Source: Eremomyces bilateralis CBS 781.70
Lineage: Eukaryota; Ascomycota; Dothideomycetes; Eremomycetales; Eremomycetaceae
Assembly (NCBI RefSeq): GCF_010015585.1
Contig: NW_022985084.1
Span: 474,735-533,824 of the forward strand
DNA: 59,090 nt
Direction: 5' to 3'
Part shown: piece by piece, positions 17,401-20,088 of the stretch
Numbering within the stretch: the stretch's first letter is position 1
Layout of the letters: each line of letters starts with the position of its first letter
The notes under the pieces: model-generated
Told to the model about the DNA's origin: nothing
Databases searched by the model: none
Seen by the model: only the letters and a program-made list of their open reading frames with translations
Made by a program: the position numbers and the translations under genes

Positions 17401-20088
17401 TTTACCTCACGTACAACGGAACGGAGAACGATGTTCAATTCACTGACCGTGGCATCATGGTGCTTGGGTCGGGTGTCTATCGAATTGGATCCTCAGTCGA
17501 ATTCGATTGGTGCTCGGTGAGAGCGATCCGCACGCTTCGTGAACAAGGATTCAAGACGGTCATGGTCAACTACAACCCCGAAACCGTCAGCACCGATTAT
17601 GACGAAGCCGATCGATTGTACTTTGAAAATATTACACTCGAGTCGATCCTGGACATATACGAGCTGGAGAACTCGAGCGGAGTCATCCTTTCCATGGGAG
17701 GCCAAACGCCAAACAACATTGCTCTTCCGCTACATCGCCAGAACTGTCGCATTCTCGGCACGTCCCCGGAGATGATCGATACCGCTGAAAATCGGTACAA
17801 GTTCTCTCGCATGCTTGATCGGATTGATGTCGATCAACCGGCATGGAAGGAACTAACCAGCATTGATGAAGCCAAGGATTTCTGTAACATGGTGTCCTAT
17901 CCTGTGTTGGTCCGACCTTCTTACGTCCTGTCTGGTGCAGCGATGAATACGGTATATTCCGAACACGGCCTCGCGAACTACCTTCAACAAGCCGCCGATG
18001 TATCAAGAGATCATCCGGTTGTGATCACGAAGTACATTGAGAATGCCAAAGAGATCGAGATGGACGCCGTTGCGCGAAATGGAACCATGGTTGGCCATTT
18101 CATCTCCGAGCACGTTGAGAACGCTGGAGTCCACTCCGGAGATGCGACTCTGATTCTTCCACCGCAAGATCTGGACCCAGAAACGGTGAGGCAGATCGAA
18201 GACGCCACGAGGAAGATCGGAAACGCTCTGAATATTACGGGACCTTTCAACATTCAGTTCATCGCGAAGAACAACGAGATCAAAGTCATCGAGTGCAATG
18301 TGCGCGCCTCAAGGTCATTCCCCTTCGTTTCGAAAGTGATGGGGGTCGATCTCATCGAAATGGCTACGAAGGCCATGGCGGGTCTGCCACTGGTTGAGTA
18401 TCCGCCTGTCAACCTTCCGCCGGACTATGTCGGTGTAAAAGTCCCGCAGTTTTCGTTCTCTCGACTGTCAGGTGCCGATCCTGTTCTGGGTGTGGAGATG
18501 GCATCCACAGGTGAAGTTGCGAGCTTTGGTCGAACCAAATACGAAGCGTATCTCAAGGCGCTTATCTCCACAGGATTCAAGCTTCCGGAAAAGAATATTC
18601 TGCTGTCGATCGGATCGTTCAAGGACAAAGTGGAACTGCTACCATCCATTGAGAGTCTGCACAAGATGGGCTACACATTGTTTGCGACGGCCGGAACCGC
18701 CGATTTCATTGCTGAACACGGAATTCCCGTCCGATTCCTCGAAGTCCTTGGAGGACATGATGCGGACCAGAAACCGGAATATTCGCTGATGCAGCATCTT
18801 GCCAATAACCTCGTGGATCTATACATCAACTTGCCTTCCAATAACAAGTTCCGGCGACCGGCAAGTTACATGAGCAGAGGCTATCGAACCCGGCGGATGG
18901 CTGTCGACTACCAGACACCTCTCGTGACCAATGTGAAAAACGCGAAGATTCTGATCGAGGCATTGGCCAGACACTATGATCTGGCGATTAGCAAAGTCGA
19001 CTTCCAGGAATTCAATCCGGCCCCGACAACAGAGACGATCATGACACCACCGCTTCTCACCAAGCAGGTCTCATCTCCGTCCCTCTCACAGCTTCTTGCC
19101 AAGTCGAACTTCCGACAAAAGAATATCATCTCCGTCAACCAGTTCACTCGCGCAGACCTACATCAACTTTTCACAGTTGCTCAAGAGATGCGAATCGGGG
19201 CGTTACGAGACGGTTGCCTCGATGTCCTCAAGGGTCGAGTTCTATGCACCATCTTCTACGAACCCAGCACCCGCACATCCGCGTCATTCGATGCTGCCAT
19301 GAAACGGCTTGGAGGTGAAGTCGTCGTCCTCCACGAGATCGCATCCAGCACCAACAAAGGCGAGAGCATATCCGATACGATTCGCACGTTGGGATGCTAT
19401 GGTGATGCGATTGTTCTGCGACATCCTGACGAGACCAGTGTTCATACCGCCGCCCAATTTTCCACGGTACCCATCATCAATGCCGGCAACGGTAGCAAGG
19501 AGCACCCAACTCAAGCCCTCCTGGACATCTTTACGATCCGTGAGGAGCTTGGAACCGTGAACGGACTCACCATCACCTTTGTTGGCGATCTGAAATATGG
19601 TCGTACGGTGCATTCACTCTGCGAACTCCTGAAGCACTACTCGGTGTCTGTTCAACTTGTCTCACCACCGGAGCTCTCCCTTCCAGCTTCCGTCCGCGAA
19701 AATCTCGTATCTCGTGGACAGCTGGCGGGTGAATACACGGAGCTGAGCCCTTCGGTCATCGCTGAAAGTGATGTGCTGTATTGCACGCGCGTGCAGAAAG
19801 AGCGCTTCGAAGATCCGGAGGTCTACAACAAGGTCAAAGATGCATTGGTTGTGGACAACAGTGTGCTCAAGCACGCAAAACCCAATATGATCGTCATGCA
19901 TCCGTTACCGCGTAATCGGGAGATCGCCGAGGAAGTCGATTTTGATCCGAGGGCAGCATATTTCAGACAGGTGAGTCAGGACTCTACTGCGTGGCAGAAA
20001 TTTGCCGGGGACATTGCTAATGAATGTGCAGATGCGATATGGTCTCTACTGTCGGATGGCATTGTTGGCCTTGATTCTAGTGCCATGA
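14453..20088 (+). CDS. pyrABCN: Multifunctional GATase-CPSase-ATCase of pyrimidine synthesis, lacking the DHOase-like domain
   Basis: Exons 14453-15065, 15121-19970 and 20032-20088 give 1839 residues. The protein makes carbamoyl phosphate from glutamine, bicarbonate and ATP and condenses it with aspartate, the first two steps of UMP synthesis. The small-subunit and glutaminase part has the nucleophile in GICLGHQLL (near 303) and HPEH. Two ATP-grasp CPSase halves run from about 440 to 1350, followed by the UTP-binding MGS-like region (KNILLSIGSFKDK). ATCase runs from about 1525 to the end with PSTRTSASF, HPTQA, RVQKERF and HPLPR, all intact. The last intron joins YFRQ to MRYGLYCRMALLAL, the usual C-terminus. 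Fungal homologues are about 2210-2275 residues. Here only about 30 residues separate CPSase from ATCase, so the usual inactive dihydroorotase-like domain is absent with no frame break. Confidence 0.95.

Follow-up and report, generated by a model that had tools for sequence, protein, structure and literature searches.

A fungal Ura2 protein without its dihydroorotase-like domain, and the highly likely recurrence of that loss in Pezizomycotina

Can a fungal enzyme of the CAD type do without the inactive dihydroorotase-like domain (pDHO) between its CPSase and its ATCase? The question is raised by a gene of Eremomyces bilateralis CBS 781.70, a species whose class, Dothideomycetes, was looked up. 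The gene lies in what we call the window, the whole stretch of 59,090 nucleotides analysed here (C18:474735-533824, on one of the 62 contigs of a 26.6-Mb genome). In animal CAD, the DHO domain sits between CPSase and ATCase. Like the fungal CAD-like proteins (S. cerevisiae Ura2, A. nidulans pyrABCN and the C. thermophilum protein), the window protein has GATase, CPSase and ATCase in that order in a single chain, and in Eremomyces, as in those fungi, the dihydroorotase (DHOase) is encoded by a separate gene; unlike them, it lacks the inactive 5nnl-type domain together with the greater part of the linker that follows. As far as the available text of PMC9863657 goes, animal CAD is likewise a single chain with glutaminase, CPSase and ATCase, but its DHO domain is active, whereas the window protein has none by Pfam, by NCBIfam or by comparison with pDHO segments.

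The gene is an orthologue of Ura2/pyrABCN, a glutamine-dependent CPSase fused to an ATCase, without pDHO. Three exons encode 1839 residues (Table 1), and the spliced model is identical in every letter to the deposited E. bilateralis protein P0001, so the uninterrupted frame of that length described beforehand is borne out. The Pfam domains run in the order CPSase small chain, GATase, CPSase large chain, MGS (residues 1376-1474), OTCace_N (1538-1679) and OTCace (1686-1835), and Pfam and NCBIfam together place glutaminase, CPSase and ATCase in the fungal CAD-like order. Motifs that we take to be catalytic in the glutaminase and the ATCase are present, as the preliminary description had said of both sides of the junction: GICLGHQ at residue 301, FHPEH at 386, EPSTRTS at 1585, KGES at 1617, HPTQ at 1666 and MHPLPR at 1797. 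Residue 1498 (base 19001) is the last of the CPSase/MGS anchor and residue 1535 (base 19110) the first of the ATCase anchor; the earlier figure of about 30 residues between the two enzymes was thus correct, and the spacer lies wholly within exon 2, with no stop codon and no intron. In an alignment with 8bpl, a solved C. thermophilum chain, the match sets in at about SPSLSQLL (residue 1523), inside the spacer, so that the end of the spacer is already ATCase and the true tether is about 20-25 residues.

Table 1. Layout of the Ura2/pyrABCN gene in the window (window coordinates)
Feature	Coordinates	Strand	Remarks
Exon 1, CPSase small-chain (glutaminase) part	14453..15065	+	Spliced model = deposited P0001
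Intron 1, 55 bp	15066..15120	+	Splice choice reproducing the deposited 1839-residue protein
Exon 2, one open frame with GATase, the large part of CPSase, MGS, the short spacer and the bulk of ATCase	15121..19970	+	
36-residue spacer, residues 1499-1534	19002..19109	+	400-450 residues here in pDHO-bearing relatives
ATCase domain, residues 1535-1821 in exon 2	19110..19970	+	Near solved C. thermophilum ATCase 8bpl, 8bps, 5nnn
Intron 2, 61 bp	19971..20031	+	
Exon 3, final 18 ATCase residues and stop	20032..20088	+	

A gamma-tubulin complex component gene (20238-22508, minus strand; Pfam GCP N- and C-terminal domains) is convergent with the Ura2 gene, the two stop codons being about 150 bp apart. 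The other genes between 3467 and 52945 resemble ordinary fungal housekeeping genes by Pfam: a DnaJ-X protein, a class I tRNA synthetase, PHAF1, a SacI phosphatase, TRAPP Trs85, a poly(A) polymerase-like protein, a RING-SAP protein, a MoeA-like protein and an RSE1/DDB1/CPSF1-like protein.

What is missing can be identified from relatives that keep it. In a pDHO-bearing Stipitochalara protein (P0135), the insert scores 529.6 bits against 5nnl, the solved inactive dihydroorotase-like domain, and about 204 bits against CAD DHO chains. NCBIfam, which lists many dihydroorotase families on a pDHO segment, reads the insert as dihydroorotase-like (TIGR00857, 87.6 bits, below the model cut-off of 279), and the same scan of the window junction gave 18 families, with dihydroorotase among none of them. 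Pfam finds nothing between MGS and OTCace_N of the window protein, but its amidohydrolase hit is also absent in both pDHO-bearing proteins scanned, and for this reason a loss of pDHO is easily missed. Segments from four pDHO domains are more telling: they match all 164 homologues with a long spacer (at least 479 bits) and, at E up to 1e-3, none of the 98 short homologues, the window protein included. Hence the central claim of the preliminary description, a CPSase-ATCase protein without its dihydroorotase-like domain, is confirmed. Where it is kept, pDHO is the least conserved of the four domains measured: its mean pairwise identity is 0.70 (110 of the 164 holders, 800 random pairs), while ATCase and MGS each reach 0.81 and CPSase reaches 0.89; this lowest identity fits a scaffold under weaker constraint.

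These homologues come from three protein searches, of which the best 120 of 2733, 1365 and 2683 hits were taken, giving 262 different proteins. The spacer, measured in all 262 as the stretch between fixed CPSase and ATCase anchors, is bimodal, with 31-124 residues in 98 proteins, 400-450 in 164 and nothing in between. The rule from which the preliminary description started, that fungal Ura2/PyrABCN proteins keep this domain, therefore fails as a general statement, since 98 of 262 are without it and they fall on several separate branches. Among the matches listed (best 120 of 2733), all 55 rows with Dothideomycete names are without pDHO and have spacers of 31-43 residues; the 55 include the window's own protein and two species listed twice, and most of the names are presumed to be Dothideomycetes, the class of Eremomyces and Cryomyces having been looked up. 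The comparison with orthologues of close relatives that had been proposed thus finds the same short junction in every such row, and a recent deletion, which had been considered, does not apply to this lineage. Outside Dothideomycetes, pDHO is lacking in the Helotiales Hymenoscyphus fraxineus, Glarea lozoyensis (two strains) and Drepanopeziza brunnea, in Sclerotinia borealis, in Peltula (Lichinomycetes) and Pycnora praestabilis (Candelariomycetes), and in the further rows P0081, P0100, P0101, P0180, P0191 and P0224. No name of Dothideomycetidae was recognised among the matches listed (best 120 of 2733, 1365 and 2683). P0100 is placed by the trees between Dothideomycetes and the remaining classes; a search from it aimed at Dothideomycetidae or Arthoniomycetes gave no recognised name in the best 120 of 2683, and those matches are spread across several classes. 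A scan of viral contigs with the window protein found no relative.

Could the short junctions be artefacts, the domain having been dropped by the assembly or spliced out by annotation? Most of the named losers, for example Drepanopeziza, Pycnora and S. borealis, are known as spliced gene models only, which speaks for such a reading. Against it stands the window itself, where the junction is contiguous DNA within exon 2, and the agreement of all 55 Dothideomycete-named rows. Moreover, 28 of the 98 losers, and 113 of the 164 holders, read on from AYFRQ into the last intron and not into the last exon. We infer that frames of this kind are unspliced, in which case the junctions of these 28 are very probably contiguous DNA. 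Twenty-six of them are jgi, lgn, ena or ncbi entries and two are named NCBI models (P0018 and P0211), and they span the Dothideomycete, P0100, P0081, P0101, P0180, P0191-Glarea and P0224 lineages. S. borealis, Hymenoscyphus and Peltula are each represented by one spliced model, but with an intron-reading frame adjacent in the tree, while the Drepanopeziza and Pycnora losses each go back to one deposited spliced model. With the same junction in many independent genomes and in metagenomic frames unspliced at the last intron, the assembly collapse that the preliminary description had offered as the dull alternative is excluded for the window, and the artefact reading as a whole is extremely improbable.

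A second possibility is that the window protein is a shortened paralogue and that a full-length, pDHO-bearing Ura2 sits elsewhere in the genome; duplications of URA2 are indeed reported for early-diverging fungi in the available text of PMC4625875. When the pDHO-bearing protein P0092 was compared with the genome, the window locus was matched over P0092 residues 80-1575 and 1978-2279, the three matched stretches being 66-83% identical, and the intervening residues 1576-1977 had as their sole match one of 8.8 bits. The other strong matches of P0092 are to CPSase on contigs C17 and C39, with six weak places besides (E 6e-11 to 1.3); these two are a large-chain and a small-chain gene, as expected for the arginine enzyme. 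A pDHO query returned nothing from the genome, whereas with the full-length query the window gene is matched on either side of the missing domain. A Pfam amidohydrolase search of the genome, taken to E 10, yielded 13 matches; eight loci drawn from these, and the URA4 locus too, resemble pDHO no more than by chance (best 25.8 bits, E 0.13). In searches with three carbamoyltransferase models, the window's ATCase was the only locus matched, and on the CPSase-ATCase trees the window protein falls among the Ura2 proteins of other Pezizomycotina, beside the single Ura2 rows of other Dothideomycetes. The single ATCase locus, the other CPSase matches, the empty pDHO query and the place in the tree argue against a paralogue. 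A fungus is expected to have an ornithine transcarbamylase as well, and the six-frame search with that model found only the window's ATCase, a second gene being either missed or absent. The genome search may therefore miss genes, which weakens the claims of no detached pDHO and no second Ura2; on the sequence at hand both are nevertheless likely to hold. The search for a separate copy of the lost domain that the preliminary description had proposed thus came back empty, with the reservation just given, and it is the ornithine transcarbamylase result that raises the chance we allow the paralogue, small as that chance is. The DHOase of Eremomyces is accounted for by a URA4-type gene (L010, C18:406910-407851) about 81 kb upstream of the window gene and in the same orientation. 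It matches TIGR00856 over residues 35-340 of 341 with 287.6 bits, slightly below the curated cut-off of 292.95; one TAG within the matched stretch is taken to be intron sequence.

If the domain was lost, how often did this happen? We take pDHO as ancestral because it is present in A. nidulans (P0223, spacer 414) and, according to parts of PMC8659124 and PMC9863657, in yeast Ura2 and the C. thermophilum protein, and because the insert is homologous to CAD DHO; changes on the tree are accordingly read as losses. Trees were built from CPSase and ATCase with the spacer cut out. FastTree on 106 rows chosen from 227 gave 8 changes, all 8 forced by starred branches; a quick IQ-TREE run on 52 rows gave 8 changes, 7 of them forced; and IQ-TREE with bootstrap on 58 rows chosen from 262 gave 9 changes, 8 of them forced, with a bootstrap range of 9-9. 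The groupings then compared were chosen post hoc, after the trees had been seen: placing all 21 losers of the 58-row tree in one clade is rejected (1169 log-likelihood units worse, p-AU 1.3e-73), as are uniting the seven Leotiomycete-side losers (a cost of 576 units, p-AU 4.8e-52) and joining P0101 to the Dothideomycete side (p-AU 7.9e-5), whereas a single loss for S. borealis and P0180 is not rejected (p-AU 0.39). Since these two can be joined, the count falls from nine to eight, and for the sampled Pezizomycotina a cautious figure would come to about eight losses, if not more: Dothideomycetes with P0100; P0081; Drepanopeziza; S. borealis with P0180; Hymenoscyphus with Glarea and P0191; P0101; Lichinomycetes; and Pycnora.

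Leftovers of the excised stretch resemble the sequence of each loser's own relatives. P0191 retains HTSPRTVVLP from the start of pDHO, where holders have QTSHRTVVLPGLIN; Drepanopeziza retains the linker AANRARFLDG, matching Leptodontidium; and S. borealis retains AMRPATRSRFLDG, matching Monilinia. In these three lineages the deletion thus ran, in frame, from the first pDHO residues into the linker. The ends of the deletion differ between loser lineages, and in Dothideomycetes no clear remnant of pDHO or linker was seen. One might also suppose a single loss followed by horizontal transfer of the shortened gene, an idea suggested by the patchy absence within Leotiomycetes. However, the named losers adjoin their relatives on the CPSase-ATCase tree, keeping all losers together carries the likelihood cost given above, and the leftover linkers match local pDHO-bearing sisters (Drepanopeziza with Leptodontidium, S. 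borealis with Monilinia), which makes one loss with transfer scarcely credible. The loss of the pDHO domain and its independent recurrence are, by contrast, highly likely. The course of events would have been an in-frame deletion of pDHO in the ancestor of the Dothideomycetes sampled, with the same excision recurring independently, so that the sampled Pezizomycotina would count about eight such losses, if not more. Keyword searches of the literature found no report of pDHO loss among the best matches listed, which included few subscription papers. A phylogeny of fungal URA2 (PMC4625875) deals with CPSase and ATCase domains and with duplications, and its available text makes no mention of the loss of a third domain.

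The proposed explanation of why pDHO could be dispensed with is that its catalytic job may have passed long ago to URA4, leaving scaffolding as the job that remained. In the model set out in the available text of PMC9863657, ATC trimers are joined through DHO dimers into hexamers, mutations that disrupt DHO dimerization give trimers, and the homodimer of the C. thermophilum pDHO is read as a sign that the domain serves structure; in 2023 the same text still described the full-length CAD architecture as pending. The loss thus bears on the architecture of the complex, in line with the preliminary description. If that model is combined with the absence of pDHO, pDHO-less fungi would be predicted to form trimers or to use another bridge. 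In such an enzyme the ATCase trimer would hold the chains together and carry three CPSases, each on a short flexible tether; the product would be a trimer of about 0.6 MDa and not a hexamer, unless CPSase-CPSase contacts bridge two of them, and proximity over the shorter tether would let carbamoyl phosphate reach ATCase from CPSase. That the Eremomyces enzyme is such a trimer has, judging from sequence, roughly an even chance. In the predicted structure of a slice with MGS, spacer and ATCase (mean pLDDT 70.9), residues 1489-1520 fall below 50, and ATCase is mostly at 80-97 with some weaker blocks. MGS is predicted poorly (below 50 over slice residues 42-111) because the slice began one strand too late, and only ATCase and the spacer were used. 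A parallel is offered by Pseudomonas aeruginosa, where, as in the fungal holders, a catalytically dead DHO relative partners ATCase; there the two are separate chains and pDHO is needed for ATCase activity, according to the available part of PMC7053772, whereas in the window protein the ATCase motifs persist without it.

The other outcome is that contacts between CPSases have replaced the pDHO dimer and that the enzyme stays a hexamer, which we regard as a tenable but somewhat weaker prospect than the trimer. The available text of PMC9863657 itself raises CPSase dimerization as a way of preserving the hexamer; also counted in its favour is the faster change of the remaining domains in most losers. 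All 11 loser rows have a path ratio above 1 to their nearest holder (Mann-Whitney p 0.0013 in comparison with 37 holder ratios), and of 14 relative-rate comparisons 11 have more unique changes on the loser side, 8 of them significantly, although in neither analysis are the loser rows independent. CPSase and ATCase are significantly faster in P0207, P0202, P0180, P0212, P0101, P0218 and P0224 than in pDHO-bearing relatives, and for ATCase the unique changes of loser and holder number 26 against 5 in Drepanopeziza and 18 against 2 in P0180. Yet for P0081 the excess is significantly reversed in both comparisons, in spite of a path ratio of 1.21, and for Pycnora the relative rate is even. In the conservation set (225 of the 262 proteins, those of more than 1250 residues), 887 columns are conserved in at least 98% of 128 holders; by within-lineage majority, 834 of these are unchanged in all ten loser lineages, 50 are changed in one lineage, three in two and none in more. 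Shared compensatory substitutions sought in these 887 columns were thus absent, none being common to more than two of the ten lineages, and this tells against a CPSase bridge.

These results correct the general statement that pDHO is kept in fungal Ura2. The broader proposition, for which we see the balance as about level, is that fungal CAD-like enzymes do not require pDHO as their hub, and that a pDHO-free and probably trimeric architecture prevails in a large part, perhaps all, of Dothideomycetes and in several scattered lineages. If this is true, the repeated losses would be natural deletion experiments that separate scaffolding from catalysis and channelling in CAD. The bridge model, as set out in the available text of PMC9863657, would be directly testable in the pDHO-less class sampled here and in about seven further losses that lie near pDHO-bearing relatives, with Glarea and Venustampulla as a related pair for such a comparison.
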